A stretch of DNA of 64,000 nucleotides from Bacteroides clarus YIT 12056. GTDB taxonomy: Bacteria; Bacteroidota; Bacteroidia; Bacteroidales; Bacteroidaceae. The stretch spans positions 124,001 through 188,000 of the forward strand of contig NZ_FQWK01000004.1 in the NCBI RefSeq assembly GCF_900129655.1, given 5' to 3'. Of the stretch, positions 8,318-36,846 are shown piece after piece. Below the pieces are notes generated by a model. It saw nothing but the letters and a program-made list of their open reading frames with translations. It made no database searches and was not told the origin of the DNA. Each line of letters starts with the position of its first letter. Position 1 is the first letter of the stretch. Both the position numbers and the translations under genes were made by a program.

Positions 8318-9778
8318 ATGAATAAACAAAAAGAAATTCTTAAAGAGATCCTTGATAATATTCCGAAAACGGATTTCAAGGAGATTTATGCCGGTGGATT
8401 GTACCGGAGGCTGGAAAAGGAAACCGATCCTGATGTGAAGAAACTTTTTCAGGAGAAGATCTATTCCATACAGGTCACTGATGAGAACAAATCCGTCCTT
8501 GTTGTCGAGAAAGTGAAGGAAGTAGCTGGACAATTAGGATATGGCCTGGTGATCAATGAGGGAAAAACGTGCTATCTGTATAACAAAGTGTTCTGGGAAC
8601 CGATAAACGAGCTTGACCTGAAACATTTCCTAGGCAAGGCTTTCCAGAAAATGGGAGCCGACAAATATACAGCCAGAAATGTGAGGATAGCGAACAAGGT
8701 CCATGAACAGGCCTGCTACTCACTTTACAGGCAGACTGAACGGGATAAGGGTGTAGTTAAAATCAATCTGACTAATACGACCCTTGTGATTGGTCATGAT
8801 GGAAGTGTGAAGGAACAGGAGCATTCGGCTGATGACTATTTCTTCTATGTCCTGCCTTATGAGTATGACCCCAAAGCGATGTGTCCCATGTTTCATAAGT
8901 TTCTGGATGAAGTATTGCCAGCCAAAGATGTTCAGGAAGTATTGCAGGAGTTTGTCGGTTGCTGTCTCAATCCCTTCATCAAACTGGAGAAGGCATTGTG
9001 TTGTGTAGGTTCAGGATTCAACGGCAAGAGCGTGTTCTTCGAGATTGTGATGGCTCTGCTTGGTGAGGATAATGTATGCTCCTACAACATAAACTCCTTG
9101 TGTGATGATAAAGGATACAGCAGAGCAATGATCAAAAACAAACTTCTGAACTACAGCAGCGACTTCAACGGCAAGATATTCGCCAACGGTATCTTCAAGC
9201 AACTGACGAGTGGAGAACCCGTTGAAGCCAGAAGATTATATAAGGAACCGGAGATTTTAAAGGACTATGCCAGGATTGCCTGCAATTGCAATTCAATGCC
9301 TTACAGTGCCGATACGTCTTTCGGATTCAGGAGGAGGTTATTGATTGTCCCTTTCGATGTGAAGATAGACAAGGGTAAGGCTGATCCTGATTTGGCTAAA
9401 AAATTGAAAAGTGAATTGTCCGGTATTCTCATCTGGGCCATCGAAGGTCTGGGAAGATTTATCAGGAACGGGAAAAAACTCAGCAAGTCCTCCACTCTTG
9501 AAAATCTGGAGCAGGCATATAAGGAGGATACGGATACTGTGGTTATGTTCCTGAGTGCCAAGAAGTGTGTTCCTGATAATGACAACAAGATAGGTCTGAC
9601 TTCCCTGTTCAACAATTATCGGGAATATTGTAGGGATAATAACCAGAAAGCTGAGACCAGGGAAAACTTCAAGATGAAACTGAAAAGTGAGGGCTATGTG
9701 GTGGAAGAAGACAACAAGAAGGGGGTGAAGATAGGTATAAACAGTTCCATGATTAGACTTTCCTCACTTTGGGATTAG
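8318..9778 (+). CDS. D5/P4-type primase-helicase (copy 1)
   Basis: A 486-residue superfamily-3 helicase of the phage/plasmid primase P4 C-terminal class. The D5_N-type region covers about residues 60-215 (NEGKTCYLYNKVFWEPI, YEYDPKAMCPMFHKFLDEVLP). The Walker A is GSGFNGKS (about 231-238), and the arginine/sensor region reads FGFRRRLLIVPFDV. A C-terminal winged-helix-like segment (KMKLKSEGYVVEEDNKKGVKIG) is present. It would unwind and help prime replication of the excised island. A 172-bp inverted-repeat copy begins seven bases after the stop. A paralogue lies at 10930-12087. Confidence 0.88.
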   Translation: MNKQKEILKEILDNIPKTDFKEIYAGGLYRRLEKETDPDVKKLFQEKIYSIQVTDENKSVLVVEKVKEVAGQLGYGLVINEGKTCYLYNKVFWEPINELDLKHFLGKAFQKMGADKYTARNVRIANKVHEQACYSLYRQTERDKGVVKINLTNTTLVIGHDGSVKEQEHSADDYFFYVLPYEYDPKAMCPMFHKFLDEVLPAKDVQEVLQEFVGCCLNPFIKLEKALCCVGSGFNGKSVFFEIVMALLGEDNVCSYNINSLCDDKGYSRAMIKNKLLNYSSDFNGKIFANGIFKQLTSGEPVEARRLYKEPEILKDYARIACNCNSMPYSADTSFGFRRRLLIVPFDVKIDKGKADPDLAKKLKSELSGILIWAIEGLGRFIRNGKKLSKSSTLENLEQAYKEDTDTVVMFLSAKKCVPDNDNKIGLTSLFNNYREYCRDNNQKAETRENFKMKLKSEGYVVEEDNKKGVKIGINSSMIRLSSLWD

Positions 9779-9784
9779 ATTACT

Positions 9785-9957
9785 TTTCTTTCCCTGCCTC
9801 AAAGGGGGAAAAGGAGGGGAAATGGGGAAAAGAGGGGGGAAAAGCCTATTTTTTATAACTTTCTCAATTTCATCCATTCAAAAATCAGTAAAAAATTAGG
9901 TTTTAGGGGTTCCGCTTTCCCCTTTCCCCCCCTTCTCTCTCTTGAGGACGGGAAGAA
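9785..9957 (+). repeat. Long inverted repeat, left copy (pairs with 22103-22273)
   Basis: This 173-bp non-coding block is matched in reverse complement at 22103-22273, with about 93% identity by eye and a few small gaps. It begins with a G-rich purine tract containing four runs of at least four G (9804-9839) and ends with C-runs and CTTGAGGACGGGAAG. It lies directly after helicase copy 1 and before the primase gene. Confidence 0.9.
9804..9839 (+). other. Potential G-quadruplex
   Basis: G-runs of 5, 4, 4 and 6 are separated by loops of 7, 4 and 6 bases, satisfying the usual four-tetrad pattern. It lies in the left inverted-repeat copy; the right copy has C-runs of 3, 5, 4 and 4 at the mirrored position. 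Confidence 0.6.
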
Positions 9958-9998
9958 GAAAGATAAAATGAAACATTAACAATTAAAATTTAGAAATT

Positions 9999-10925
9999 AT
10001 GATTGAAGTAACACTCTTTAAACAGAAACCTTATAGTCAGGAATATACAAATACTCTGACCGGTATAAAATCATTCAGAGTCATGGAATATCCTCCCAAC
10101 TATGTGGATGTTGATTTGGTATTCGACATGATTGAACAGGAAAAACTGAAACCTGAGATTGATGCCATGAGATCTTTCTATGATACTGACCGTTCAAAGT
10201 ATTCCGAACTTAAGGGAAAATTACCTGTCTGTCTCTTTGCCGGAACATTCGGAAGATTCTGTAATGATGCTCTTATTGCTCCTTCGGGGCTTGTAGTTGT
10301 TGATTTGGACAAGATTCCACCCCAGGATATGTCTGGTGTCTGGAATATGCTGGTCAATGATCCATATACCTATGCTGCATTCCTTTCCCCTTCCGGTAGA
10401 GGATATAAGGTTATTGTCCGTGTAGGGAATAATATGGATAATACCAGTCATAACGAATACCTTGATGCCTTGAAGGAATATTATAACTCTCCGTTCTGGG
10501 ATGACTGTTGTAAAGGAATGTCCAGAGCTTGTTATCTAAGCAGTGACCCTGATCTTTATCGGAACAGGAACAGCAAGGTATGGACTATAAGAAAAAGTAC
10601 TCCTCAACCAACGAATACAGGTAATCACAATCCTATAAGTCCTAAATACATGGTCTGTTCACCCAGTGAAGCAGCTAAAATCATAAATTTTCTGGAAGGT
10701 GGATTCTATAAATATCCGATGACACCAGGTCAAAGACATGATTCAGCCTTCAACAGAGCAAGGGAATTGGCTGAATGGGGATTTTCAGAGAGTGCGGCTT
10801 ATGTCAATCTGAGAAAGTTCATAGAACCGGATTTCCCGGAAGAAGAGTTGAAACGTGAAATAAGAAATGCCTATAAGTGGGTTGATGGTAAAGGTAAAAT
10901 TGGTAGTAAATATAGAAAAATTTAA
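9999..10925 (+). CDS. BT4734/VirE N-terminal-type primase-like protein
   Basis: A 308-residue protein resembling the BT4734-like domain found fused or adjacent to VirE/D5 helicases in Bacteroides elements. Characteristic stretches are LFAGTFGRFCNDALIAPSGLVVVDLDKI (about residues 75-105) and AAFLSPSGRGYKVIVRV, an archaeo-eukaryotic-primase-like metal/nucleotide region. The C-terminal ~90 residues (GQRHDSAFNRARELAEWGFSE...) look like the primase C-terminal helical domain. It would make primers for the D5 helicase downstream, whose start follows after 4 bases, implying co-translation. Confidence 0.8.
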   Translation: MIEVTLFKQKPYSQEYTNTLTGIKSFRVMEYPPNYVDVDLVFDMIEQEKLKPEIDAMRSFYDTDRSKYSELKGKLPVCLFAGTFGRFCNDALIAPSGLVVVDLDKIPPQDMSGVWNMLVNDPYTYAAFLSPSGRGYKVIVRVGNNMDNTSHNEYLDALKEYYNSPFWDDCCKGMSRACYLSSDPDLYRNRNSKVWTIRKSTPQPTNTGNHNPISPKYMVCSPSEAAKIINFLEGGFYKYPMTPGQRHDSAFNRARELAEWGFSESAAYVNLRKFIEPDFPEEELKREIRNAYKWVDGKGKIGSKYRKI

Positions 10926-10929
10926 GATT

Positions 10930-12087
10930 ATGGATTACAAAAAATTATTGGGGGATATAATCAATGCCATTCCCCAACCGACTGCTTCAAACAACAAGAG
11001 GGGAACAAATGCTGAAATATGCTACAAGATACAACAAGTGGCAATCAGGGTCGGTCATCCTTTTCAGACTTTCAGGGACCAGCATGTTTATTCCTACACC
11101 GGAAAGTATTGGGTCAGTATAGATGATTTTGACCTGAAGATATTTCTCAGGGAAGCTTTGGGGAAAATGACAAATGATATGGTAGAGGCATCACAAAGGG
11201 AAGTGGTGGAAGGATTGTTCAAGCAGTTTCCATATACGGTGATGGGATTGGCCGTAGAGCAGGACAAGGAGAAAATCAACTTTCTGAACGGTACGCTTAA
11301 TCTTAAAACCGGAAGACTGGAACAACATCTGTATTCGGATTATTTCAGGTATGTTCTCCCTTACCCCTATAACCCAAATGCGACGTGTCAGATGTTTATG
11401 AAGTACCTGGACAGAGTATTACCGGACAAAGACACTCAGAAAGTGTTAGCTGAATATATAGGCTGGATCTTTACACCATTGAAACTGGAGAAGTGTCTGT
11501 TTCTCTATGGTTCAGGAAAAAATGGGAAATCGGTGTTCGTTGATATTGTCGAGGCTCTTTTAGGCAAGGAGAATATTTCCCATGAGTCTCTATCGGATAT
11601 GTGTGGAGAAAACGGAGACAGAAGCAGGGCAAATTTATCTGGGAAACTGTTGAATACCTGCTCTGATGTAGCCCCAAACGCTTTCTCGGGGGATATTTTC
11701 AAACGTATCGCCAGTGGGGAACCTATCAGCACCAGACAACTATATAAGGATGTGGCAACACTTACCGATTATGCAAAGATGCTTTTTTGTCTGAACGAGC
11801 TTCCGAAAACCAACGACAAATCGAACGGATATTTCAGGAGGTTTCTTATCGTTCCCTTCAAAGTCCAGATACCCAAACCGGAAGTGGATCCGAAACTGGC
11901 TGAGAAGATTGTTTCTACAGAGTTACCCGGAATTATGAACTGGGTACTTGAAGGTAGAGAACGGTTAATCACTCAATCCGGTTTTACTGAATCTTCATTA
12001 TGCCAGAAACAATTGGAGGAATACCGTTATGGCAGTGGAGTACGGAAAAAGGTGAATCTAATCCTGCCTGATGGATTCAAGTTATAA
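10930..12087 (+). CDS. D5/P4-type primase-helicase (copy 2), short C-terminus
   Basis: A 385-residue paralogue of the protein at 8318-9778, clearly diverged. Walker A is GSGKNGKS (about 194-201), and the downstream blocks GKLLNTCSDVAPNAFSGDIFKRIASGEPISTRQLYK and FRRFLIVPF align with copy 1. The start MDYKKLLGD follows the primase stop by 4 bases. After QKQLEEYRY the sequence no longer resembles copy 1 and stops about 75 residues sooner, so the C-terminal winged-helix region is missing. The protein could still be an active ATPase, but may not bind the origin alone. Confidence 0.85.
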   Translation: MDYKKLLGDIINAIPQPTASNNKRGTNAEICYKIQQVAIRVGHPFQTFRDQHVYSYTGKYWVSIDDFDLKIFLREALGKMTNDMVEASQREVVEGLFKQFPYTVMGLAVEQDKEKINFLNGTLNLKTGRLEQHLYSDYFRYVLPYPYNPNATCQMFMKYLDRVLPDKDTQKVLAEYIGWIFTPLKLEKCLFLYGSGKNGKSVFVDIVEALLGKENISHESLSDMCGENGDRSRANLSGKLLNTCSDVAPNAFSGDIFKRIASGEPISTRQLYKDVATLTDYAKMLFCLNELPKTNDKSNGYFRRFLIVPFKVQIPKPEVDPKLAEKIVSTELPGIMNWVLEGRERLITQSGFTESSLCQKQLEEYRYGSGVRKKVNLILPDGFKL

Positions 12088-12096
12088 AAGAAAAGA

Positions 12097-12130
12097 GGAG
12101 ACTGAACTTAATTGCTCGGTCTCCTTTTAA
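12097..12130 (+). terminator. Terminator of the replication operon
   Basis: GGAGACTGA (12097-12105) and TCGGTCTCC (12116-12124) pair with one wobble over a 10-base loop, followed by TTTT. It ends the primase-helicase transcript facing the convergent SMC-ATPase gene. Confidence 0.75.
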
Positions 12131-12215
12131 TTCTTGATTGTTTACTTATCATGTCAAATAGCTAAAAATAATCTAACTATAAAAGTTTATATATCTATAT
12201 TGATAAAGTACCTTC

Positions 12216-13901
12216 CTATTTAAAAAAAGAATTGCTCAATAACTTTTCTATATTTTTCTTAACACCTTGATATTCTTCTTCTTTTAATAAAGGTATATTA
12301 CTCTCTATTTCAATTAGATGACAATTTGTCGCATCAAATTCATCATCTTTGTTAATACCCAATATAAGCTGAGAATCAACTGGCTTGTTCTTTATTATAT
12401 AGTTATTCATCTTCTTCATTGTTTCTGCATCAATAGAACTTTGACGTGGAGAATCTATGACAATTGGTGCAAATAGAGCCCTAGAATTCCCATTTATTAT
12501 TTCTAGCATACTATAATTATAGGCTATAATACATCTAGGTGCAGCAGAACCAACACCCTTTACAACACCTGTAATTTTATTAGGCTTAGGATTAGAATTC
12601 GGTATAGAAAGTGCTATATATGCTTTATTGATAGAATTAGAAAATTTTTCCTCAATATTTTTTTGCTTTTCCTTATTATTTAATCGGCTTAATGATTCAT
12701 TTAGACTATGTTCTAATAGTATTTTTTTATTCTTTTCCTCCATAAGTTTATTGCGTTGCATATCTATCACATCATGAAGTTTTTGATTTACTAAAGACTC
12801 GATTACATCTTCAAACGAGTAATTTTCTCTTTTTATAGCCAGTAAATTTTGTATAGCTACTATTTTTTCTACAACAACTTGTGTTTTATTTTCCACTGCA
12901 TCAATTTTTCTATTCAAATCATCCAGGTTGCTTTGGAGATTTAATCTTAAATCTTTAGATTGGTCTATATCTAGCAGCATTTCATATCTCCCCACTTCAC
13001 TATTTTCAACTTTTGATTGACAGATAGGACATATAAGAATATTTCGTTGTTGCAATGCAAACAAATAATCCTTTTCTATTTCCGATATATTATTATCTAA
13101 TTGCTGTAATTGAAATTCGAGAGATATTTTTTGGTTATATAGCTCTGACAACTCGTTTAAGTGTTTTTTTTGAAGTTTTTTTAACTCTTCTGATTTTTCA
13201 ACTAATTCTTTTTTTTCCGCATTAAATTTGTTTATATCGTAATTTATACTTCCTTTATCAAACTGTTTTTTTAATTGTCTGATAAATGTTTTTATCAGTT
13301 CAATAGAACGAGTACACTCTTTAATTTCTTTCTTTATCAGAATCAATCTATTTTTTGCATTGTTATAAGAGTCAGTATAAATGCCAGCATGATATAGTTG
13401 AGCTGTAGATTTTCCATTAGGTATACCAATTTTATAAAAAGAATTCCAAACAGAGTTCCATCCCCTATCTTGATCAATATAAAAAGGAGCAAATAAAAAT
13501 CCTAATGGAATTACTCTCACATTATTCTCATTATCTAACATCTGGAATTCAATCCCCAATAATTCAGTTAATTTATCAGATACTTCCCATGAGTTTTTAG
13601 AACGAAATCTAAACGAACCATCACAATTATATAATATTATCTCATTACCAATGCGAAGTGATTGATATGTTATTCCATCTATTTTAAATTTTAATAAATA
13701 TATAATATTAGCATCCAACCATCTTTGAGGCCAAACCTCGATTTCTGTACCTAATGAATAATATAATGATTTTATCAAGCTGGATTTACCTGATCCGTTT
13801 GCTCCTTTTATTATAACAACATGATAATCAAGATTTATTGTTAGTCCTCTCTTTTCTCTGTAAGAAAGAAATTGTATCTGAATAAACTTTATTTTTTTCA
13901 T
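12216..13901 (-). CDS. lmuB: SMC/Rad50-like ATPase with zinc-hook motif, Lamassu LmuB-like
   Basis: A 561-residue ABC-type ATPase. Walker A GANGSGKS sits at about residues 33-40 and Walker B reads PIVIDSPRQ at about 475-483. Between them is a long coiled coil interrupted by CPIC near residue 290, the position of a Rad50-type zinc hook. In Lamassu systems this SMC-like subunit recognises DNA ends or invader DNA and releases the nuclease subunit. The gene follows the DUF4297-type nuclease gene by 47 bases on the same strand, which is the core Lamassu arrangement. The coding sequence is much more AT-rich than the flanking replication genes. A generic RecF/SbcC-like ATPase is the alternative, but the partner makes Lamassu more likely. 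Confidence 0.82.
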   Translation of the reverse strand: MKKIKFIQIQFLSYREKRGLTINLDYHVVIIKGANGSGKSSLIKSLYYSLGTEIEVWPQRWLDANIIYLLKFKIDGITYQSLRIGNEIILYNCDGSFRFRSKNSWEVSDKLTELLGIEFQMLDNENNVRVIPLGFLFAPFYIDQDRGWNSVWNSFYKIGIPNGKSTAQLYHAGIYTDSYNNAKNRLILIKKEIKECTRSIELIKTFIRQLKKQFDKGSINYDINKFNAEKKELVEKSEELKKLQKKHLNELSELYNQKISLEFQLQQLDNNISEIEKDYLFALQQRNILICPICQSKVENSEVGRYEMLLDIDQSKDLRLNLQSNLDDLNRKIDAVENKTQVVVEKIVAIQNLLAIKRENYSFEDVIESLVNQKLHDVIDMQRNKLMEEKNKKILLEHSLNESLSRLNNKEKQKNIEEKFSNSINKAYIALSIPNSNPKPNKITGVVKGVGSAAPRCIIAYNYSMLEIINGNSRALFAPIVIDSPRQSSIDAETMKKMNNYIIKNKPVDSQLILGINKDDEFDATNCHLIEIESNIPLLKEEEYQGVKKNIEKLLSNSFFK

Positions 13902-13948
13902 TACACTTTGTTCTTAGATATCGGATTAATAATTTAAGAGATGCACCT

Positions 13949-15016
13949 TTACTCATTATTGACTATATATAAAATTAATGCCTTTAAGTAATACTCACTA
14001 TGTCTCATAAGATTAACATATTCCCTTTCAACCATATCATATATTTTACAACAATATTGATAAAGAGTTATATCATCTTCTATCTCAGTGGTTTTATAAA
14101 CGCTTGATATATATTTAATCAGTTCCCTAATTTCATAATTTCTATAATCCATTAGATCGACCTGTATTTCTTTCCATGATCTTTGCAATTCCTTTATTGT
14201 TTTAAAACTAACCTTGTCGTTGTTAAGGATTCCAACAATATTTTCACAAGACCTTTTGAATGTTTCAAAATTATTTATCTCATTCAAATATATATCAAAT
14301 CGTTTTTTAGTAAAACTTTTTTCACTAATTAAATCATCTGCGCTTGTTATATCCGTAGCATAACGAATTTTTCGTTCTATTTCATTATGTAGTGAATCAT
14401 AAAATATTTTAGGCTTCAGATCTGGACTCAAATTACTTTCTTTTATAAAATCAGTGACTCGTCCAATCATGATTTCATTATGCAAATTATAGTGTAATTG
14501 ATTTATAAAGAAGTACAAATTATCAAGCTTGCTAATATTTACTTTCGGATCTTCTTTTTCTAATCTTTTCTTTATTGAGGCTTGAGTAGTACTTTTTAAA
14601 TCATAAAAATGAATCAAATTTTGAGAAGTACTCCCTATTTTCAGCATACTGCTTGATAAATAATCATTGGTAACAAAATATATATTTCTGGTATAACTTA
14701 TTATAGCGAAATGAGATAACAATTTCCATAAAATAGAATGTCCACCTTTTTCATACTTTGTCAATCGGTTAATAGTCCATTGATTATTGTGGCTGGTTTT
14801 TATTTGATAAAAATCAACATTTTGCAAGTTTACCTCTCCATCTAAAACAACTATATCATCATGATAATCAAAAACAATAATATAGTCATTGCCAGATTTA
14901 TGCAAGGTTAATAATTTGTCCATTCCCCAATCACATTGATAAGAGAAACCACCAGAAGCCCATGCTCCGCCTTTTTCTATAGGCTGATTCATTACTAGAT
15001 TACTTAATGCATTCAT
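13949..15016 (-). CDS. lmuA: DUF4297/Cap4-type nuclease, Lamassu LmuA-like
   Basis: A 355-residue protein with an N-terminal DUF4297-type endonuclease domain. The hallmarks are GGAWASGGFSYQCDWG at about residues 16-31, a DDIVVLDGEVN strand and FYQIKT near residue 70, giving the D...QxK pattern of this PD-(D/E)XK branch. The remaining ~250 residues are helical and likely bind the SMC partner or a sensing subunit. Such proteins degrade DNA when their ATPase partner is triggered. It is the first gene of a two-gene unit with the SMC ATPase; a TATATTTG -7 box lies at 15057-15050. No separate LmuC gene is visible. Confidence 0.8.
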   Translation of the reverse strand: MNALSNLVMNQPIEKGGAWASGGFSYQCDWGMDKLLTLHKSGNDYIIVFDYHDDIVVLDGEVNLQNVDFYQIKTSHNNQWTINRLTKYEKGGHSILWKLLSHFAIISYTRNIYFVTNDYLSSSMLKIGSTSQNLIHFYDLKSTTQASIKKRLEKEDPKVNISKLDNLYFFINQLHYNLHNEIMIGRVTDFIKESNLSPDLKPKIFYDSLHNEIERKIRYATDITSADDLISEKSFTKKRFDIYLNEINNFETFKRSCENIVGILNNDKVSFKTIKELQRSWKEIQVDLMDYRNYEIRELIKYISSVYKTTEIEDDITLYQYCCKIYDMVEREYVNLMRHSEYYLKALILYIVNNE

Positions 15017-15196
15017 TAATTACTTAACCTTACGATAAAACCTATGTTGCAAATATAATAAAAATAAACAATTTACCTATCCTTAAGTAATACTTTCTAT
15101 AATTAGTTTCTTTATATACTAAAAAGTCGTTATACTGAAAAGTATTACGACTTTAATAAAATATGAACTATCCACCATTTCCAATTACTTATTCGT

Positions 15197-15775
15197 TCAG
15201 TTTATCCAATCCACAACAGTCTCTCCCTTATAACCTTTTTCCCACACGAACCAGGCATAGGCGATTGCATTTCCGTTGTTTGGGATGGCTGTAAAATCTC
15301 CATCCTTGGCAACAGAAGCGCAGGAAGAAAAGACATGGATTTTTCGTGGTGGATTGTCCCGGAAGAATGGTTTACGTCTTTTTCCCTCCAGGAATGTCAG
15401 CTTCAGGAACATGGCTATCTTTGTTCCTTCGTCAGATATATCCAAGGCTTTCTCTATAAATTCCAGGGCTATCTTATAAGGAGGGTTGGTAATGACAGCT
15501 CCATAAGGGTTTTCGGTGGCTTTCAGGAAATCAACTCCACCGGTACCATAACCACGATTTATCAAGTCAGTGGAATGAACCTTTTTGCCTAATTCTATCA
15601 TTCTTTTAGAGAGGTGTCCCATTCCACAAGCAGGTTCCCATATCGTATCAGGGAACTTCTCCACCTCGAATAACCTGTCTATGGCTTCGGGGTATGTAGC
15701 ATAAAAATCATGTTCCTTCCTTGCCGTACCGGAGTGGTTGGAAGCTCCGATTGTGGTATATATTGTATTTTTCAT
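15197..15775 (-). CDS. DNA N6-adenine methyltransferase-like protein
   Basis: A 192-residue class I methyltransferase fold of phage type. The WEPACGMGHLSKRM segment is the SAM-binding motif I (about residues 44-58), and VITNPPYKIALEFI contains the NPPY catalytic tetrapeptide of N6-adenine methyltransferases (about 94-100). It starts HDFYATYPEAIDRLFE, common in orphan phage enzymes. No cognate restriction gene is adjacent, so it is likely an orphan methylase that protects or marks the element. It ends a three-gene minus-strand operon, starting 5 bases after the previous stop. Confidence 0.8.
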   Translation of the reverse strand: MKNTIYTTIGASNHSGTARKEHDFYATYPEAIDRLFEVEKFPDTIWEPACGMGHLSKRMIELGKKVHSTDLINRGYGTGGVDFLKATENPYGAVITNPPYKIALEFIEKALDISDEGTKIAMFLKLTFLEGKRRKPFFRDNPPRKIHVFSSCASVAKDGDFTAIPNNGNAIAYAWFVWEKGYKGETVVDWIN

Positions 15776-15779
15776 AGCT

Positions 15780-16214
15780 TTAGAATATTATCTGCATTAA
15801 GATTCGATCCGAATAGCATCTGATTCCGATATGTTCCACTGTCTGTCCCGTCTCTTCAAACAGCTGGAATTTATAGAACCTGATGAAGCTTGTGATATCA
15901 GTATAGAAGTTCTTCCCGGCAAATTTTAGTGGATGTATCATTGGATATCCACCGACAGCCTGTAGCTGGAATGCTCCTATTCCCACCCCGGTTATCAAGG
16001 CCATGTCCGCATCAAAAATGATTGGTGCGTCGGGATCATAGTCGAAGTCCCTGACAAAGAACATTCTGACCTCTTTCTCGCTGATCTCCTTTATTCTAAA
16101 TTGCGCCATTCCAGAGGTGTATTCGTCCAATGATTCCTGCACCCGCGATTCCATTTCTTTAATGCTCATATTTGTATTGAGCACTTCTCCGTTTGCTATA
16201 AAATAGTTCTTCAT
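15780..16214 (-). CDS. Hypothetical protein, 144 residues
   Basis: An acidic soluble protein (MKNYFIANGEVLNTNMSIKEME...) with no transmembrane segment or recognised motif. Its start overlaps the previous gene's stop by 4 bases, and the methyltransferase gene starts 5 bases after its own stop. The three are probably co-expressed and functionally linked to DNA modification or its control, but that is inference from position. Confidence 0.65.
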   Translation of the reverse strand: MKNYFIANGEVLNTNMSIKEMESRVQESLDEYTSGMAQFRIKEISEKEVRMFFVRDFDYDPDAPIIFDADMALITGVGIGAFQLQAVGGYPMIHPLKFAGKNFYTDITSFIRFYKFQLFEETGQTVEHIGIRCYSDRILMQIIF

Positions 16215-16552
16215 AATGATTTAGGTTTAGTTTTTTGTGATGTGATTGTTAGTGTAATTCCCTGTTCTTTTTTTAGATAAGATATTAGTCCTGCATAAGA
16301 ATCTACTCTCTTACGATCTCTCGGCATGACTGATAAAGCCTCCTGAAGTGTAAGATTAATACAGAATCCGGTTTTAAAAGCATCCCCATACTTGCGCTGG
16401 AGCAATGCTACGTCTTTCTTATACTTTTCAGGGATAGGTTTGGTGCTGTCTTTTGTCACGATAACACTTGGCACAGCATCATTTTCCAAGCGATTAGAAA
16501 CTGATGATCTTGGCTCAGCTCCTAATATTCTGTTTATAAAGTCAGTGAACAT
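16211..16552 (-). CDS. Hypothetical protein, 113 residues
   Basis: First gene of the three-gene operon. It has a basic middle (PIPEKYKKDVALLQRKYGDAFK) and a lysine-rich tail. The segment LTLQEALSVMPRDRKRVDSYAGLISYLKKEQGITL suggests a small helical domain that could bind nucleic acid. No family is recognised. Confidence 0.6.
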   Translation of the reverse strand: MFTDFINRILGAEPRSSVSNRLENDAVPSVIVTKDSTKPIPEKYKKDVALLQRKYGDAFKTGFCINLTLQEALSVMPRDRKRVDSYAGLISYLKKEQGITLTITSQKTKPKSL

Positions 16553-16814
16553 AAAAATTCGATTTATATTTCAGATATTAGGCAGTGAGGCTGTGAAAAT
16601 GGCAAAAACGCAGTTTGGAGAAGACAAACTCATGTTGTATTTAATTTTATTCAAGCTTTGATTAACATTCGTTGTTTTGTCCTTTGATTTACCATAACAA
16701 AACGCGGAAGAAAACGGCGGAAATCCTTATATCTGAACAAAGAAAAATTTATCAAGAAAAAGATAGAGATTTTCTTTGTTTTATTTTTTATTGAATCATT
16801 AAACCAATTTAATT

Positions 16815-18356
16815 ATGGCAGACTTATTAATAGCAACAAAGGCTTTCTGTAATACATTAAAGGCAGGCTCTTTCACTGGAGATACTACAATGTGTCCTAC
16901 AAGAAGCCAAATTGAATCAGCTGGTTTGTATATAAAAAAAGGTTATACCTATGCAACCGATCAGCTTGTTCCCCAAGATCATATAGAACGTCTTGATTGG
17001 GAATATACTTTCTCTGTAACTCCAACTACAACAACTATATCCGCGGCGGGAGGATCACAGAAATTCACAGTGACCTCGTATAAGAGACAATATAGTTATA
17101 GTAATGCAGGAAATCGTATCTATGTAGAGGGATCACAAACAAATGTAGGGTATACTAGTTCTAATAGTGGATCTGGTACTTGGACCGCCGCGAGTGATAC
17201 TATTAGTTATAGAGCAAATACTGGATCAACACAGCCGAGCGGTACTATTACATGGACTCAATCTGAATCTTTTGGCTCTGATCCTAAGAAAACAGCTACT
17301 GCAACTCATAAACAAAATGCAGATTCTATCAGTTCTTATGATAATCCAACAGTTTCTTTGGCTTACAATTCAAATATTCCTGCATCTGGAAAAACAGCCG
17401 CTAATCCTACTTATTCTTATAATCAGGTTGTTCGTTGGGTATCAGGAAAAACCACAAATGTTACTTCTGGAGGTTCACTGACTTTTACTAAGGCATCTAA
17501 TTCTGGGACGGGCACAACAAATTCTTCTACAGGATCTACTACAGCACCTTCTAAAGGAACAACTGCTTCAAGTCGGACCGTTGTAGCCACTGTAACTTTA
17601 TCAGTAACTTTAAACGGTAAGACTGGTACTTCTGGTAGCGCCAATGTTTATCAGGCTGCTAACTCTTATTCTGATTCTTGGGAGAATTGGACTGTCAACA
17701 TATCGGCCGACCCTGTAAGAATAGGTGCAAGAGGCGGTACATCCTTATTATCGGGAACAGCAGAAAGGAAAGGTATCAGGGAATGGGACTCAGGCAGTAA
17801 GGAAGACATAGACGATTCCGGAACACCTTTTTTCAGTATACCCGCACATAGTAACGGCTGGTCGTTATCGGAAAACATACTGACAGCGGTAGAGAATACA
17901 GGAGAGGAAAGAAGCGTTGTCGTTACCGCATCCCATGAAGAAGGCAGGAATGAAGTGGTGGTGTATCAGGAAGCAGGTGTAATCACATGGGAATATGTCT
18001 TCTCCATAGATACCGATTCCATGTCTGTTCCGGCCATAGGTGGAACGCAAAGGGTCAACGTATCTTCCCTGAAAAAGAAAATCATCAACGGAAAAGATTC
18101 GGGAGAAACGGAAACAGTAGGATTTTCCGTAGGATGGCATTCGGGAGATAACTTCAACTCCATAGACAGAAGCGGAATACCCGAATATGTGATGTTTGAT
18201 GTCGGTAGGAATACTGGGAATGAGAGAACGGAATACGATATGTTTACCCAGGAAGAATCCGGAAGCACTATCCTTTTCACATGCAGCCAGGAAAGAGGAT
18301 TGACAGGATTTATCGTCTGTGGAAGAAACGGTTATATTGAAAGGATAGAAATCTGA
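16815..18356 (+). CDS. Multi-domain BACON/Ig-like fibre or adhesin-like protein
   Basis: A 513-residue protein without a signal peptide. The N-terminal ~55 residues (MADLLIATKAFCNTLKAGSF...) look like an attachment domain. About four repeated beta-sandwich units follow, each marked by a segment such as ISAAGGSQKFTVTS or VPAIGGTQRVNVSS, the BACON/Ig pattern. BACON-containing fibres occur in Bacteroides phages and surface proteins, where they bind mucin or glycans. The codon style changes near 17690: the first part is T-rich and repetitive, the last two units are A/G-rich, suggesting a mosaic gene. A second, broken version of the C-terminal half lies at 19662-20491. Phage-like fibre versus cell-surface adhesin cannot be decided. 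Confidence 0.72.
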   Translation: MADLLIATKAFCNTLKAGSFTGDTTMCPTRSQIESAGLYIKKGYTYATDQLVPQDHIERLDWEYTFSVTPTTTTISAAGGSQKFTVTSYKRQYSYSNAGNRIYVEGSQTNVGYTSSNSGSGTWTAASDTISYRANTGSTQPSGTITWTQSESFGSDPKKTATATHKQNADSISSYDNPTVSLAYNSNIPASGKTAANPTYSYNQVVRWVSGKTTNVTSGGSLTFTKASNSGTGTTNSSTGSTTAPSKGTTASSRTVVATVTLSVTLNGKTGTSGSANVYQAANSYSDSWENWTVNISADPVRIGARGGTSLLSGTAERKGIREWDSGSKEDIDDSGTPFFSIPAHSNGWSLSENILTAVENTGEERSVVVTASHEEGRNEVVVYQEAGVITWEYVFSIDTDSMSVPAIGGTQRVNVSSLKKKIINGKDSGETETVGFSVGWHSGDNFNSIDRSGIPEYVMFDVGRNTGNERTEYDMFTQEESGSTILFTCSQERGLTGFIVCGRNGYIERIEI

Positions 18357-18443
18357 TTTTACTTATTTTAACTTGTAGCTTATAGTAAATAATATTATGA
18401 TTAGTATTTTTACATCAAAAATGTAGAAATTAAAAGTAAAATC

Positions 18444-19451
18444 ATGAAAATCAGATTATTTTTTATGGCATTGTGTCTTTGTGTGTTTGCATCCTGTGAG
18501 AAGGATGAACCTGTTATTTCGGATGAACCTGTTGTTCCACCTACGGAACAGCCTGAGGAGCCTGAAACTCCTGTTGAACCGGAAGAGCCACAAGAGCCAA
18601 TATCGACAGATGGGATAATTAACTGGAATAATGAATTTATAATTGTAGGAGATAATAATATGGCAAATATAGGAAGTGGGACATGGAATTGTATCACATA
18701 TGGTAATGGAAAATATGTAGCAGTTGGAAGTGATGGAGATACCGCTTACTCAACTGACGGAGTCAATTGGAATAAAGGAAATATTGGTAACTTGAAAATA
18801 TACAGATTAAATAGTGTTGCTTATGGAAATGGAAAATTTGTAGCGGTTGGAGAAACTAGAAATTTTACATCGGATGCGGCGAAGAGGATATATAGTACCG
18901 ATGGAATAAATTGGAATAAGTCAGAAGAGTCTTATCCATATAATGACAGTCATTATAATGTAGCTTATGGGAATGGAAAGTTTGTCACAAGTATATATGC
19001 AGACGGAGACGTTCTGACTTCCTCTGATGGGATTACGTGGAGATATTCTGATAATGGTATTTCAGCAGGGACTCCACCCATAGCTTTTTTAAATGGAGAA
19101 TTTATATCACTGTCTCATAATAGTACATATACATCAACTGATGGCAACTCTTGGAGCAAGAAATCAAATAATCTTGATTTCTTTGCAAAAAGTGTTTGTT
19201 ACGGAAATGGGAAGTATGTTGCAGTTGGTAGTTATGATGATTATAAAGCAATCGCTTATTCCACTGATGCAATAAATTGGACTATAGGATGGAAGTTGCA
19301 GAAGGAACTTTATAGTGTCACCTATGGCAATGGGAAATTTGCAGCAATAGGTGAAGCAGGAACCACTTATATATCTGTAGACGGAGCCAATTGGTCTAAA
19401 GTAGATATTGGAATATCCGGAACGCTTTATGGGATTATTTCTGTTCAATAA
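18444..19451 (+). CDS. Surface lipoprotein with beta-propeller-like repeats
   Basis: A 335-residue lipoprotein. The signal peptide ends at the lipobox VFASC (Cys19), followed by EKDE, acidic and lysine-bearing as in surface-export signals of Bacteroidota lipoproteins. A proline/glutamate-rich linker (about residues 25-52) leads to about seven repeats built around YGNGKxVAVG and STDGxxW. Such repeats form sialidase/BNR-like beta-propellers that bind or recognise ligands; no catalytic residues are evident. It follows the fibre gene by 87 bases and ends at a strong terminator, so the two may work together at the surface. Confidence 0.8.
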   Translation: MKIRLFFMALCLCVFASCEKDEPVISDEPVVPPTEQPEEPETPVEPEEPQEPISTDGIINWNNEFIIVGDNNMANIGSGTWNCITYGNGKYVAVGSDGDTAYSTDGVNWNKGNIGNLKIYRLNSVAYGNGKFVAVGETRNFTSDAAKRIYSTDGINWNKSEESYPYNDSHYNVAYGNGKFVTSIYADGDVLTSSDGITWRYSDNGISAGTPPIAFLNGEFISLSHNSTYTSTDGNSWSKKSNNLDFFAKSVCYGNGKYVAVGSYDDYKAIAYSTDAINWTIGWKLQKELYSVTYGNGKFAAIGEAGTTYISVDGANWSKVDIGISGTLYGIISVQ

Positions 19452-19483
19452 TCTCTCAGCACTCTATTAAACCTCTTTAAATC

Positions 19484-19510
19484 AGCCGGACTAAGTTCCG
19501 GCTTTTTTTA
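19484..19510 (+). terminator. Terminator after the lipoprotein gene
   Basis: AGCCGGA (19484-19490) and TCCGGCT (19497-19503) form a perfect stem with a 6-base loop, followed by seven T. Confidence 0.85.
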
Positions 19511-19661
19511 TTGTTTCTTTATCGAACAGGAAAATGTCTAAGGATGATGAACAATAAATGGATGATGGTATCGGATATACAAAAACTACTATGGATGTAT
19601 CATGAAAGCAGCGTACAGTATATAACAGCCTGCTAACATAATTCACAAATAAAAGAACTAA

Positions 19662-20491
19662 GCAGTTCATTGGGTATCTGGAAAAACAACAACGTTAACA
19701 TCCGGCGGAACTCCATCATTTAACAGAACCTCGGGAACAGCAACAGTAAATTCTTCAAGTGGTTTAGCAGCACAAGGTTCAAAGGGTACTACACCATCTA
19801 ATCAAACTACTGTAGCTGTTGTTTCATTAACTATTACGATGAATGGTAAATCTAGTTCAGCATCTAGCGCTAATGTTAGTCAAGCAGAAAACTCTTATTC
19901 AGATGCATGGAATACTTGGGTTGTAACATGTACTCCTAATCCTACAACAATCAGTGCGGCTGGTGGTACTTCAACACTATCAGGTACAGCACGTAGAACT
20001 GGTACTAGAACTTGGAGCTCGGGGAGTACACAGCCTTTAGATTCAGGGAATCAGAACGTAACAAGTTTCTCTATAGTATCCCCTGTTTCCGGTTTCTCAA
20101 TTTCTGGGGCTGTTGTTACTGCTACATCTAATTCTGGAAGTTCTAGGAGTGTTCAAGTGAGAGGTACATACAGCAGTGTAAATTCTCCTGAAGCCACAAT
20201 TACTCAATCAGCTGCAACAGAAAGTACTTATTATGAATATAGTATCAGTCTTAGTCCTACATCAGCATCTTTCAGCGCTACAGGTGAAAGTAAAAGTTTT
20301 ACAGTTACATCTCAACGTAAACTTGTTACCGGAAATTCAGTATTTGGTATCACTTATGGAAACTGGGGAGATACCAGTTGGGAAATCTCTTCAACCAACT
20401 TGGGAATGATAATTGGTCAACTATTAACTATACATCAAGTACAAACTCAGTCTCTTCTCCGGTCTTGATACCTTCTTATCGATTTCGATGA
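19662..20491 (+). pseudogene. Displaced second version of the fibre protein C-terminal half
   Basis: From codon 19665 the frame reads VHWVSGKTT, matching RWVSGKTT at 17433 in the fibre gene, and continues through homologous Ig/BACON units (ISAAGGTSTLSGTARRTG, FSATGESKSFTVTS). There is an in-frame stop just upstream (19659-19661) and no proper start. At about 20406 one A appears to be missing: restoring it continues the protein as NDNWSTINYTSS to a stop at 20491. Composition matches the first half of the intact gene rather than its second half. It is a remnant or silent cassette, not an expressed gene. Confidence 0.78.
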
Positions 20492-20893
20492 AAGGCGAAC
20501 AGCTGAAGCATGTGGGGGAAGGAACACAGACGAAAACTCACGATTAAAAAGGCAGGGTTTCAAGTGCTGAAAAGCCCTATGGACAGGATGAGATTAGTTC
20601 TTTTAATTGCCCGAAAGCCCATTGCTGAATAGTTCAAGGAAGAATTCGAGAAGTTAAGGCAGAACATACGCCGACCTATACAACCGCAAAGGAAAAGTAG
20701 AGGAATGAAATTGTAATCGACTTATTGCGCTGAAAAACAAAAAGCACCGTTCATGATGTCTTATGAATGACACTTTTTGTGTATATTTGTAAATAATAGT
20801 ACATTGGGAACTATGCCGAGTGCGTGACGAGCAAAAAACTTTCGGAAAAATACACGTGAATACAGAACTATAACAATTTTAATTATTGATGTA
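20492..20893. other. Degraded non-coding stretch
   Basis: No intact gene. A short in-frame piece (FKEEFEKLRQNIRRPIQPQ, about 20628-20700) looks like the C-terminal end of a lost protein. A hairpin with A5/T5 flanks near 20738-20780 could terminate it. Probable debris from earlier insertions. Confidence 0.45.
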
Positions 20894-21253
20894 ATGAAAA
20901 AAGTAAAAATAACCGTATTAAGGAAAACTATTATTGAAGATTTGGCAAAGGAATATGGAATAGAGGGGTTGACAAAATGTCCTATGTTGAAAGAAAGTCA
21001 GGTATTTTATGCCGATTATGCAAAGCCAAAAGGTTTTTGTGATGAAGCATGGAAGGCAATTTATCAGTATGTATTTGCTTTGGCTCATGGTGCTTCAAAG
21101 GAAACTTTCTATTTTGGAGACTGGATAAAGAAACCGGGTGTAGCTATATGCAGCTGTAATGATGGTTTGCGACCCGTAATCTTTAAGTTGGAGGCTACAG
21201 ATGAAGAATCCTCCTTAAATTATACACCTATAAAAGAGAACAATCAAGAATAA
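20894..21253 (+). CDS. TIGR04076-family small protein
   Basis: A 119-residue protein with features of the TIGR04076 family: a KKVKITVLRKTIIEDLAKEYG start, a CPMLKESQVFYA segment, GFCDEAWKAIYQYVFALAHGA in the middle and CNDGLRPVIFKLEAT near the end. The conserved cysteines suggest metal or redox chemistry, but the function is unknown. It is a single gene among degraded sequences in the island, probably cargo. Confidence 0.78.
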   Translation: MKKVKITVLRKTIIEDLAKEYGIEGLTKCPMLKESQVFYADYAKPKGFCDEAWKAIYQYVFALAHGASKETFYFGDWIKKPGVAICSCNDGLRPVIFKLEATDEESSLNYTPIKENNQE

Positions 21254-21318
21254 AGAAAGCCTCCGGCGGGGTTTTCGCTGGGGGATTCTGACCTTTGCAC
21301 ATCATAATCGAATTATCC

Positions 21319-21948
21319 ATGAAAAAAATTATTCTATTGAGCCTCTTATATTTCCCGCTAAGTGGATTTGTGCAAAAAAACTATTTTTCCATAACGGGAA
21401 GAGCATTTGTAGAAGAATATATAGTTCCTAATCAAACAACAAAATCCCAATAGAGTGCTGGTACTTATATTCAAATTAAAGAAATGCCTGAACGTGGTTG
21501 GCTGACAGATACAGAAGGGTACTTCAAAATAGATAGCCTACGAGAGGGGAAATATCATCTAACATTCTCTTGTATTGGCCTTGAACGTGTAGATACCTTA
21601 ATTCTCATTAATGATAACATAGATTTAAAGGTTATATTGTCAGACCTTAGCATTCAGATACCACAATTAAGCCTAATCCTTTCAAAAGAAGAAGAAAGCA
21701 ATGTTCTGAAAGACAATTTTTGGGATAAATACGGACTTAAAGCATCATGGTACACAAAAGAAAGTTTACAAGATAAATCACAGCGAATAACAATCTTAGA
21801 TTATTTCCACAAAGTCAAAAGAAATCAAATAATTTTCGACTATCTTGATAAGAAATACGGATATAGCTGGAGATTTGAAGCACCAAAGGGAATAATAGGA
21901 TTAAACGAGAGGTTAGACACTTGTGAAATTTTTACAAATTGCAACTAA
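21319..21948 (+). pseudogene. Secreted carboxypeptidase-regulatory-like protein interrupted by amber stop
   Basis: ATG at 21319 opens MKKIILLSLLYFPLSG, a signal peptide, then YFSITGRAFVEEY, as expected for a CarboxypepD_reg-like beta domain. TAG at 21451-21453 breaks the frame. Beyond it the same frame continues for ~165 codons: TDTEGYFKIDSLREGKYHLTFSCIGLERVDTL is the rest of that domain. The downstream part (from ATG 21484) lacks a signal peptide. Likely a pseudogene with one nonsense mutation; readthrough is less likely. Confidence 0.7.
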
Positions 21949-22102
21949 CATCACCGGTTAAAAATAAGTTTAATAATCCACTTCTAGCCTTGTTGTTCAC
22001 TTCCAATTTTTAAAAGTGGTAATTATAAAACGGCGAATCAAAGCATTCAGTTATATTTGATTTTCTGTTTCCGGATTAAATTATGATTCAGTAGTTATTT
22101 GT

Positions 22103-22273
22103 TTCTTCCCGTCCTCAAGAGAGAGAAGGGGGGAAAGGGGAAAGCGGAACCTCTAAAACCTATTTTTTTACTGATTTTTGAATGGATAAAATTGAGAAAG
22201 TTATAAAAAACAGCCTTTTTCACCCTCTTTTCCCCCATTTCCCCTCCTTTCCCCTTTGAGGTAGGGAAAGAAA
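22103..22273 (-). repeat. Long inverted repeat, right copy (pairs with 9785-9957)
   Basis: Reverse complement of the block at 9785-9957, about 93% identical over 171 bp including its G/C-run tracts. The two copies enclose about 12.1 kb with the primase, helicase 2, Lamassu, methylase and fibre genes. Confidence 0.9.
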
Positions 22274-22938: not shown

Positions 22939-23622
22939 TCAATCCTCTTTTAAGTTATACCTTTTCAATAATATACTCACCTGCGAAGCTCTGAATTCCT
23001 TCCCCATAGCTGTAACAAATCCTTCACTATTCAGGATTCTAGCCATTTCAGACAAACTTCTATCTTCTCTTACTAAGTTTTTCAACAATGCTATGGCTCT
23101 CTTGTTATTGGGGTTATCAAGAGCTTTCTGATGATTGGTCTTGTTACTGTTCTCTACTGCTTGATTCAATTTATTCAATAGGTTCTCAGATTTCCCCAGC
23201 TTATATCCCCTTGATTTCTTGGCTTTCAGGGATTGTTTCGTTCTTTGGCTGATCAATCCCGCCTCATATTCCGCTATACTGCTGATGATATGTAGTACAA
23301 GTTTATTGGCCTCAGGAAAATCACAAAATACTATCTCGACATCGCTCTCCAACAATTTACTGGTGAAAGCGACATTTCTACTTAATCTATCCAGTTTTGC
23401 TACAATCAGGACAGAATTTGTTTTCCTGCATAATTCCAAAGCTTCAGTAAGTTTAGGTCTGTTGGATTTTCTTCCGCTTTCCGTTTCAATATATTCAGCA
23501 ATCGTTTTTCTATCCTTCAGGTAATTCTGTATAATTTCTCTTTGTGCCTCTACGCCTAATCCTGATACTTCCTGTTTCACTGTGGATTGTCGTAAGTAAG
23601 CTACATAATTTTTCTGTTTCAT
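22939..23622 (-). CDS. Serine recombinase (resolvase/invertase family)
   Basis: A 227-residue small serine recombinase. The catalytic serine is S13 in VAYLRQST, followed by the GLGVEAQ segment and the LIVAKLDRLSRN arginine motif at about residues 76-87. The C-terminal ~50 residues (SLSEMARILNSEGFVTAMGKEFRASQVSILLKR) form a helix-turn-helix. I chose MKQKNYVAY as start. Such enzymes resolve multimers or invert DNA segments. The neighbouring hairpin and the long inverted repeat are possible substrates. Confidence 0.9.
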   Translation of the reverse strand: MKQKNYVAYLRQSTVKQEVSGLGVEAQREIIQNYLKDRKTIAEYIETESGRKSNRPKLTEALELCRKTNSVLIVAKLDRLSRNVAFTSKLLESDVEIVFCDFPEANKLVLHIISSIAEYEAGLISQRTKQSLKAKKSRGYKLGKSENLLNKLNQAVENSNKTNHQKALDNPNNKRAIALLKNLVREDRSLSEMARILNSEGFVTAMGKEFRASQVSILLKRYNLKED

Positions 23623-23690
23623 AATTAACACTTATTTAACGTCCTTCTCGGTTACTGAATGTCCGTTCAATAACCTTTAAGCTGATTTAT

Positions 23691-23790: not shown

Positions 23791-24135
23791 TTATATATTA
23801 TATGTATCAGAAACCCTCTTCTCATAGTCATTGGTTTTCTCCACAAGTTCATCTACCACAGAAACAAGCATGTCAAAGTAGATGCCCTCTCTCTTATCCC
23901 TGATTTCTCCATCTTCAGCAATCAGACAGACTTCAAACAGGTCAGCACCCTCATTCAAAACTATCTGAACTTTTCCGGTATGTTTGAATCCGTTGACTCT
24001 GAATTCAAGACCATACTTTATCACTTTTACTGTTTCAATCTCAACTCCCCAAGACATTAGAATCGGGAGATTGGATTTCAGGATTGACCAGATATACTTG
24101 GCCAGTTCCAAATCGTAGTTCTTATCTCTTTCCAT
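23791..24135 (-). CDS. Hypothetical protein, 114 residues
   Basis: A soluble alpha/beta protein (MERDKNYDLELAKYIWSILKSNL...) with KVQIVLNEGADLFEVCLI as probable strands. It overlaps the end of the upstream peptidase-like gene by 14 bases, indicating coupled translation. Not recognised. Followed by a hairpin terminator. Confidence 0.65.
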   Translation of the reverse strand: MERDKNYDLELAKYIWSILKSNLPILMSWGVEIETVKVIKYGLEFRVNGFKHTGKVQIVLNEGADLFEVCLIAEDGEIRDKREGIYFDMLVSVVDELVEKTNDYEKRVSDTYNI

Positions 24136-26675: not shown

Positions 26676-26704
26676 AATCTTCTGAATTTTAAATTGTCGG
26701 TAAA

Positions 26705-26747
26705 TAAAAAAGGAGGGATACTTCCTTTTTATCGGAAATATCCCTCC
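26705..26747 (-). terminator. Terminator after the 26782 gene
   Basis: On the minus strand GGAGGGATATTTCC pairs with GGAAGTATCCCTCC around an 8-base loop, followed by a T-run (A-tract 26705-26711). Confidence 0.8.
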
Positions 26748-26781
26748 TCAGAATATCAAATTTTGGTATGTTTCAACCTTT

Positions 26782-27063
26782 TCAGATGAATGGTATCGTA
26801 TCCTCTTCCAGAACTCCCGATTCCACTATCTTCTTACATATCTTATGGGAAGCCTTGTTCCTCAGGTCATATCCATAATCCTCGCTTCCCATGATTCTTA
26901 TTACTTCAACCATACTTCTGAATAAAGTCTGTTGCAGGGTCTTGTGGAATGTAGTGACTGCAATAGCGAACCTTCTCTCATTCCACCCATAATCGTTCAG
27001 GGCATGTTCAAGTTCTTTTGCAGCCTTGAATTCCCTGCTGTTTTCCAATTCTTGTCTTTCCAT
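26782..27063 (-). CDS. Hypothetical protein, 93 residues
   Basis: A helical protein (MERQELENSREFKAAKELEHALND...) ending in EEDTIPFI. It begins 12 bases after the 27076 gene stop and ends before a strong terminator. No family is recognised. Charged-helix content suggests a small adaptor or dimer. Confidence 0.65.
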   Translation of the reverse strand: MERQELENSREFKAAKELEHALNDYGWNERRFAIAVTTFHKTLQQTLFRSMVEVIRIMGSEDYGYDLRNKASHKICKKIVESGVLEEDTIPFI

Positions 27064-27075
27064 AATGTCTTTCTG

Positions 27076-27582: not shown

Positions 27583-27607
27583 GTTATTTATTTTTAAAAG
27601 GGTTCAA

Positions 27608-27654: not shown

Positions 27655-27678
27655 TTGTGAGTTAATTTATTTTCCGGT

Positions 27679-36823: not shown

Positions 36824-36846
36824 GAAAGCAAATAGCAAATTAAAGC

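Follow-up and report, generated by a model that had tools for sequence, protein, structure and literature searches.

The replication of satellite phage P4 relies on two related cis-acting sites, ori and crr, which lie kilobases apart, one of them near the initiator gene, and which are both needed; why two distant cis sites are required is an old question. The P4 primase is of the TOPRIM type and is fused to the helicase (alpha protein). In RSF1010, the ssiA and ssiB sites are arranged in inverted orientation. These two sites are recognised by a primase, one per strand (PMC4234260). The same source describes replicons combining an AEP primase, an SF3 helicase and a winged helix, with a stem-loop located 3' of the rep gene (PMC4234260). 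As for the PICI/SaPI origins described in PMC6092414, they lie directly 3' of the helicase gene, with an AT-rich stretch framed by two sets of repeats.

We analysed a 64,000-nucleotide stretch of Bacteroides clarus YIT 12056 (hereafter, the window), in which a preliminary description had signalled an inverted repeat with copies about 93% identical. The repeat was confirmed: copies A and B, of 173 and 171 bp, are inverted, 93.1% identical over 174 aligned columns and separated by 12,145 bp (9958-22102). We consider it probable that they represent two copies of a candidate replication-origin element of an integrative island, A being the origin and B a second cognate replication site, in the manner of P4 ori and crr. 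As in P4, the helicases are of the P4 family (TIGR01613) and two related putative cis sites lie kilobases apart, one of them near the candidate initiator gene. On the contrary, the window encodes a separate BT4734-type PrimPol (PF08800) and no fused primase, and the whole element is duplicated and inverted.

The locus also resembles other described systems. Like the PICI/SaPI origins, copy A lies directly 3' of the candidate initiator helicase gene and its repeat sets flank an AT-rich stretch (PMC6092414); however, the helicase and the primase belong to other families, the island measures 32.6 kb, the repeat sets face each other in a near-palindrome, and a second inverted copy lies far off. 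With pRN1 and its stem-loop origin, as presented in PMC4234260, the window shares an AEP primase, an SF3 helicase, a winged helix and a palindromic element 3' of the helicase gene, but its proteins are separate and its element carries G-rich repeats and is present in two copies. The putative origin of SCCmec Cch2 likewise combines an island-encoded initiator helicase with a C-terminal DNA-binding domain (a function that is predicted here), a primase partner, and repeats in an intergenic region close to the gene of a serine recombinase; it differs, in the description given, by its single site, its short direct repeats and its other proteins (PMC7581432). Finally, RSF1010 also has two sites, but these are close together in one origin (PMC4234260), whereas those of the window are 12 kb apart.

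Layout of the element and its host island

The repeat pair sits within an island inserted at a tRNA-Asp gene of the Bacteroides chromosome (Table 1). Copy A fills the gap between the D5a and PrimPol genes, starting 7 bp past the D5a stop codon, and occupies the same place in relatives. The C-terminus of D5a contains a winged-helix-like (Pox_D5) region (Pox_D5, E = 1.3e-4). The structure models of this protein are of poor overall quality, with a mean pLDDT of 37.5 for the sequence alone and of 50.7 when ten rows are supplied; in the C-terminal part of the ten-row model, a helix-helix-helix-strand-strand block reaches a pLDDT of about 50-84. The preliminary description had set the likeness of the copies against the strong divergence of the neighbouring helicases. 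D5a and D5b are indeed about 40% identical, but they are distinct paralogues, found side by side in related islands too, so that their divergence is uninformative on the age of the repeat. The island also carries Lamassu defence genes. Pfam matches were examined for 20 ORFs of the island region and for 10 others, including chromosomal ones, and contain no packaging or capsid family. The 537-aa protein of the resolvase module has no match in PDB, PHROG or NCBIfam.

Table 1. Coordinates of the element copies and of the main island features in the window
Feature	Position	Strand	Basis or remark
tRNA-Asp gene	4189-4263		ARAGORN and Rfam
attL, left island end: tRNA-Asp 3' end	4246-4272	+	27-bp match (85%) to 36806-36832
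D5a: P4-family SF3-type helicase, candidate initiator	8318-9778	+	PF19263, PF08706, PF03288; TIGR01613 above cut-off
Copy A: origin-like quasi-palindromic element, D5a-PrimPol gap	9785-9957	+	
Copy A outer motif, left (TTCCCTGCCTCAA)	9790-9802	+	pattern match
Copy A left arm: G-rich GGGGAA-type repeats aimed at core	9804-9843	+	4 inward repeats
Copy A AT-rich core, possible melting site	9844-9906	.	GC 22% vs 52-56% in arms
Copy A right arm: opposite-strand G-rich repeats aimed at core	9910-9935	-	2 inward repeats
Copy A outer motif, right (TTCCCGTCCTCAA on minus strand)	9942-9954	-	pattern match
PrimPol: BT4734-like_N + PriCT_1 primase	9999-10925	+	PF08800 2.3e-21, PF08708 3.6e-5
D5b: second P4-family helicase	10867-12087	+	PF19263, PF08706; TIGR01613 above cut-off
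Copy B: second, inverted copy of element	22103-22273	-	0.67 kb from resolvase gene 3' end
Copy B outer motif	22106-22118	+	pattern match
Copy B outer motif	22256-22268	-	pattern match
Serine resolvase/invertase-type recombinase flanking copy B	22939-23631	-	PF00239 2e-27; phrog_125 'DNA invertase'
Conserved module adjoining resolvase: M28-like protein, 537-aa protein, 26782, 27076, DUF3871	24122-28722	-	
Tyrosine integrase adjoining attR	35164-36516	-	PF00589
attR: partial copy of tRNA-Asp end	36806-36832	+	match to attL

Only these two copies of the element were found in the genome: the A-B match inside the genome has an E value of 2e-67 and the next match one of 0.33. The outer-motif pattern (TTCCCNNCCTCAA-N125..155-TTGAGGNNGGGAA) matches twice in the window, against no match in 100 shuffles. 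Among random 380-bp stretches drawn from nine related islands, the window included, 3/360 have a distant inverted partner, and these three overlap the resolvase-side repeat sites of P. sartorii, G442 and G412.

The layout was also compared among copies. Outer motifs are present at both ends in 8/9 of them, 38 of the 43 GGGGAA-type repeats are aimed at the core, and the GC content of the core (14-28%) contrasts with that of the arms (36-64%). Global self-complementarity exceeds that of all 500 shuffles in 8/8 copies. Under a stricter test for local stems, in which no more than 15 of 300 shuffles may equal the element, significance is reached in 6/13 helicase-primase gaps and in 3/7 gaps of the D5a type. 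Folding as single-stranded DNA is unusual in 11 of 16 elements (the exceptions being G409aB, G549_1, the two G412 copies and G442A), with z values of -2.3 and -2.4 for copies A and B of the window. That the element acts as a structured RNA within the primase transcript is less favoured: this region has no Rfam match and copy B is intergenic, away from the primase, which favours a DNA element.

Recurrence in related islands

Genome counts refer to genomes drawn evenly or taken as whole groups, a subset of all known genomes. A close PrimPol was found in six genomes, and in each of them the helicase-primase gap holds the element. This includes G508, whose primase and helicase are 45% and 48% identical to those of the window and whose element gives a weak match (E = 2.7e-7). 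Copy A was found with no second copy in B. finegoldii (60 kb, without the resolvase module), P. intestinalis (70 kb) and G508 (15-kb contig). A scan with the element profile gave one copy A each in B. gallinarum C2 and C28, and none in G130 or B. finegoldii C4, these four stretches being left out of our 22-stretch map. For the D5a-type element, the G549 primase gap and the surroundings of the P. intestinalis 537-aa gene give chance-level matches at most.

We then define as nine islands the mapped stretches with both resolvase and primase matches. For the preliminary description, absence of the copies from homologous islands would have counted against its reading. This did not occur for copy A and the picture for B is mixed: an inverted pair is found in 6/9 islands (the window, P. 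sartorii, G519, G442, G412 and G549) and is absent from B. gallinarum C52, G409a and G409b. These absences, together with the genomes carrying A only, indicate that B is not essential everywhere. In the paired islands, the resolvase-side copy lies 0.1-2.8 kb 3' of the resolvase gene. The replication-side copy occupies the helicase-primase gap in four of the six; in G412 it precedes the helicase gene by 0.3 kb, and in G549, where helicase and PrimPol are fused in a single gene, it overlaps the start of that gene. No direct pair with this placement, by the resolvase and a replication gene, was found among the nine islands; the inverted orientation may perhaps reflect the mere loss of direct pairs by deletion.

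The pairs belong to four element families, between which pieces of only 13-51 bp match, whereas copies within an island match at 69-93%. The paired islands are partly dependent, the window and P. sartorii being orthologous and G412 and G549 sharing element family X. Their resolvases are 62-83% identical to that of the window, and the element family does not track the resolvase.

Outside these islands, the plasmid collection contains no match to the DNA and no primase match at E<=1e-20. Two Microviridae records match over 31 bp only, outside the palindrome of the element, and eight phage records carry distant primases (<=33% identity). No relative emerged from IMG/VR when it was scanned with the primase, the 537-aa protein and D5a. 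One pattern match was obtained, which we take as chance because it lies in phage-like genes and because a DNA search of that record with copy A found nothing.

Possible roles of the second copy

Among the options listed by the preliminary description, an origin pair appears, on sequence grounds, the best supported: A lies at the helicase-primase gap in six genomes, its layout is origin-like, and the inverted two-site arrangement recurs with unrelated sequences. After excision of the island, D5a would attach to the outer motifs of A and to both of its facing G-rich repeat sets and would melt its AT-rich core; priming would then fall to the neighbouring PrimPol. Copy B, near the resolvase module, would be recognised by the same initiator and would serve in cis as a second initiation site or as an accessory one, much as crr complements ori in P4.

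The copies also show concerted change, as judged from their sequences, in agreement with the earlier proposal that gene conversion or selection maintains their similarity. Copy B has positional orthologues in P. sartorii, where copy A is paired with a diverged B, and in G409a. In a seven-row tree, on which this claim rests, window B groups with A and not with these orthologues (p<=0.002). A six-row tree supports the grouping of the two window copies at 77/80 only and does not reject that of window A with P. sartorii A (p = 0.22), and an eight-row tree has no starred branch. The need for a single initiator to read both A and B would explain their continued likeness, gene conversion between them probably helping.

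That B belongs to the same sequence type as A and is kept alike would also suit a control site. In iteron plasmids, copy number is limited by titration or handcuffing through initiator-binding repeats, and B could be such a repeat cluster, titrating the initiator or handcuffing with A; the three copies near the G442 resolvase would suit a titration array. We regard this role as unlikely, as B keeps the whole element, including the core and both outer motifs, beyond the repeats alone.

It is also rather improbable that B is a functionless relic beside the resolvase, left by a former replication module or by a sister island that became fused. Such a history would fit the three islands without a pair, the orphan B of G409a (which adjoins the resolvase with no matching A within 60 kb) and B. 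gallinarum C59, in which a half copy is fused to half of another palindrome, X. However, pairs recur at the same place across four sequence families, in the window B has stayed close to A, and between the window and G409a B (85% identical) is at least as conserved as the nearer flank (81%), though a further flank is at 91%. The preliminary description had also listed scars of module insertion, a reading that may apply to copy B, since three of the nine islands lack the pair.

The proposal that the copies recombine, by the serine resolvase or RecA, and flip the 12-kb cargo with its defence genes is not supported, and we judge it very unlikely. The inverted repeats are long enough for RecA and the nearby recombinase has DNA-invertase-like profile matches, but inversion would separate the replication genes from one another, and helicase and primase are adjacent in 13/13 mapped primase-bearing islands (an adjacency that is uninformative on a flip for G412 and G549). 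No mapped island thus shows a flipped state, and the element families differ while the resolvases remain similar. Scarcely credible as well is a non-autonomous palindromic, MITE-like element that landed twice, a reading that the terminal inverted motifs and the palindrome X, single or paired near the resolvase in several islands, could recall: there are only two copies in the genome, not a dispersed multicopy family, and one fixed helicase-primase place in six genomes.

Returning to the origin and its second site, we tentatively propose, as a possibility that we hold with low confidence, that gut Bacteroidaceae islands are two-site replicons, carrying cognate origins as an inverted pair, one of them at the initiator and the other at the resolvase. 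Each strand might have its own start, with strand displacement proceeding from two sites far apart, or the two sites might have to loop together. Since origins belonging to several replicon types (the element families of the window, G519, G442 and X) would gather 3' of the resolvase, an island might even be copied by the initiator of another. If confirmed, the recurring inverted pair, with its several unrelated element sequences, would offer natural replicates for second-site function; it would also provide origins and a replication module for the genetics of gut Bacteroides, and would explain the self-copying of islands that carry defence genes.

The inverted pair and its island

The two copies of the origin-like element, A and B, are 93.1% identical over 174 aligned columns and enclose 12,145 bp in inverted orientation, in agreement with the preliminary description (an inverted repeat of about 93% identity around some 12.1 kb). 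This repeat is a real feature. A whole-genome search found only these two copies (next match, E = 0.33), and among 399 genomes drawn from the family, matches at E<=1e-5 occurred only in this genome and in one congener (G376). The 32.6-kb island is bounded by the end of a tRNA-Asp gene and by its 27-bp partial copy, located beside the tyrosine integrase gene. Copy A takes up most of the gap between the D5a helicase and primase genes, while copy B is flanked by a small cargo gene on one side and, 666 bp away on the other, by the 3' end of a serine recombinase (resolvase) gene. The UvrD-like helicase and DUF2290 genes match a PADLOC candidate defence pair. Compared with B. finegoldii (fine_C19) and P. 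intestinalis (inte_C74), the integrase gene is at the opposite end and in the opposite sense relative to the replication genes.

Features of the island (window coordinates)
Feature	Position	Description
tRNA-Asp end	4246-4272	island boundary
D5a	8318-9778	TIGR01613 (P4 primase-helicase family); weak C-terminal Pox_D5 match, E = 1.3e-4
Copy A	9785-9957 (+)	origin-like element
Primase	9999-10925	BT4734-like_N and PriCT_1 domains
D5b	after primase	TIGR01613 (P4 primase-helicase family)
LmuB	12216-13901	Lamassu-type cargo between copies A and B
LmuA	13949-15016	Lamassu-type cargo between copies A and B
Copy B	22103-22273 (-)	origin-like element
UvrD-like helicase, DUF2290 protein	29720-32481	
Integrase	35164-36516	tyrosine integrase
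tRNA-Asp partial copy	36806-36832	island boundary

Recurrence in related islands

Within the window's genus, 4 of 158 genomes have a close primase, as do 2 of 61 in the genus of G168; the carriers include B. finegoldii, B. gallinarum, P. sartorii and P. intestinalis, and G376 has an additional, distant primase. In all six close-primase genomes, an element profile matched the helicase-primase gap (weakly in G508, E = 2.7e-7). P. sartorii carries a second complete copy, inverted, 11.8 kb off, and B. gallinarum C59 an inverted half copy 18 kb off; the stretches of B. finegoldii (60 kb), P. intestinalis (70 kb), B. gallinarum C52 (27 kb) and G508 (15 kb) showed no second copy. The relatives share, to a varying extent, a backbone of GmrSD-like, D5a, primase, D5b, small, resolvase, M28-like, 537-aa and DUF3871 genes, B. 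finegoldii having no resolvase module within the stretch examined. In B. gallinarum, identical primases lie on four contigs (C2, C28, C52, C59) and 537-aa genes of identical score on four (C52, C57, C78, C81), many of them at contig ends; the assembly was probably interrupted by at least two copies of the island. The P. sartorii 537-aa gene (G399:C120 7788-9389) is split into several fragments and contains stops, which suggests possible decay of this island.

Matches to the 537-aa protein encoded beside the resolvase turned up in 11 of 157 genomes from the window's genus, in 4 of 61 from a second genus and in 2 of 201 from a family draw (the three draws overlap). Thirteen stretches were retrieved, and then two more. 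Nine of the 22 mapped stretches contain both resolvase and primase, and six of these nine present an inverted pair (>70 bp), one copy of which lies downstream of the resolvase gene. In the window (this copy 666 bp from the resolvase), P. sartorii (about 0.8 kb), G519 (519 bp) and G442 (three copies, 2.8 kb), the partner occupies the helicase-primase gap. In G412 (116 bp), the partner is 0.3 kb upstream of the helicase gene, and in G549 (641 bp), it overlaps the start of a gene for a fused helicase-PrimPol. No such pair was found in G409a, G409b or B. gallinarum C52, G409b having an inverted 274-bp pair away from the resolvase. Direct repeats are present in several islands; none in the 22-stretch map pairs a site beside the resolvase with one at a replication gene. 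Taken alone, 4 of 12 primase-upstream stretches had a distant copy, and 13 stretches 3' of the resolvase, or at the corresponding place, yielded 4 distant partners, all inverted in both sets; the second set also gave one local inverted match of 45 bp, in P. intestinalis. Six inverted pairs out of six have a chance of 1/64 under free orientation, a figure to be read knowing that not every island is an independent case and that direct pairs were possibly deleted.

Element families, anatomy and concerted change

The elements fall into four families (window/P. sartorii, G519, G442 and G412/G549). Copies within one island are 69-93% identical, and across families only pieces of 13-51 bp match. The helicase of G519 and G442 belongs to a different P-loop family (no Pfam match, or UvrD-like), while the resolvases of paired islands are 62-83% identical to that of the window; the element thus follows the replication genes and not the recombinase. 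Another palindrome, X, of about 200 bp, lies near the resolvase 3' end in several islands (L056 21416-21635, L052 11890-12083, L120 and others) and forms the pair in G412 and G549. In G549, it covers the start of the fused gene (L155 12438-15344; 968 aa, helicase-like N-terminal and PrimPol-like C-terminal parts). A profile trained on six X copies gave no match in the window's resolvase region. B. gallinarum C59 carries a chimaera (L054 1437-1567), with a window-type left half and an X right half joined at the common TTTTTTATAAC.

Anatomy was described on nine copies, i.e., eight from the six close-primase genomes and copy B of G409a. Eight carry the outer motif TTCC...CCYCRA at both ends, 38 of 43 GGGGAA-type repeats are directed inwards, to the core, and the core has 14-28% GC vs 36-64% in the arms. 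Global self-complementarity exceeded all 500 shuffles in 8/8 copies. Weaker results came from DNA folding, unusual in 11 of 16 elements, from all families (no more than 7 of 150 shuffles gave so low a value), and from a strict local stem test, which 6 of 13 gaps passed. The consensus fold comprises 37 pairs, of which 10 have both sides changed in some sequence; the covariation term was of no help (+0.89).

Copies B of P. sartorii (46-bp flank patch at 89%, plus the resolvase) and G409a (flanks 91% and 81%) are positional orthologues of window B. Window B is nevertheless closer to A (93%) than to either (71% and 85%, respectively). A seven-copy tree joins the window copies (95/96) and rejects a grouping of window B with the two orthologues (p = 0.0001) or with that of G409a alone (p = 0.002). 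The suggestion that the copies are kept similar, by gene conversion or selection, is thus supported; the window's copies became alike after their positions arose, via conversion or replacement.

Copies A and B as candidate origins

Positions, layout, concerted change, recurrence and inverted orientation are the observed part of the mechanism. D5a would bind A and B and melt the core, PrimPol would then prime, and B would assist or initiate in cis. In PICIs, the origin follows the initiator gene on its 3' side and has two sets of repeats that flank an AT-rich segment (PMC6092414); copy A is likewise 3' of a helicase gene, with repeat sets around an AT-rich core. Stem-loop origins also occur together with an AEP primase, an SF3 helicase and a winged helix (PMC4234260), BT4734-like primases are counted among AEP families (PMC5862659), and SCCmec Cch2 is a further system for comparison (PMC7581432). 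No description of paired inverted origins in Bacteroides islands was recognised among titles and abstract openings of the open-licence papers that the literature searches listed. Of the options in the preliminary description, an origin pair is the best supported; since three of the nine resolvase and primase islands are without a pair, copy B may also be a scar of module insertion. From its gap position, its layout and its presence in all six close-primase genomes, copy A is fairly likely an origin, and copy B may be a second origin, a control site or a relic.
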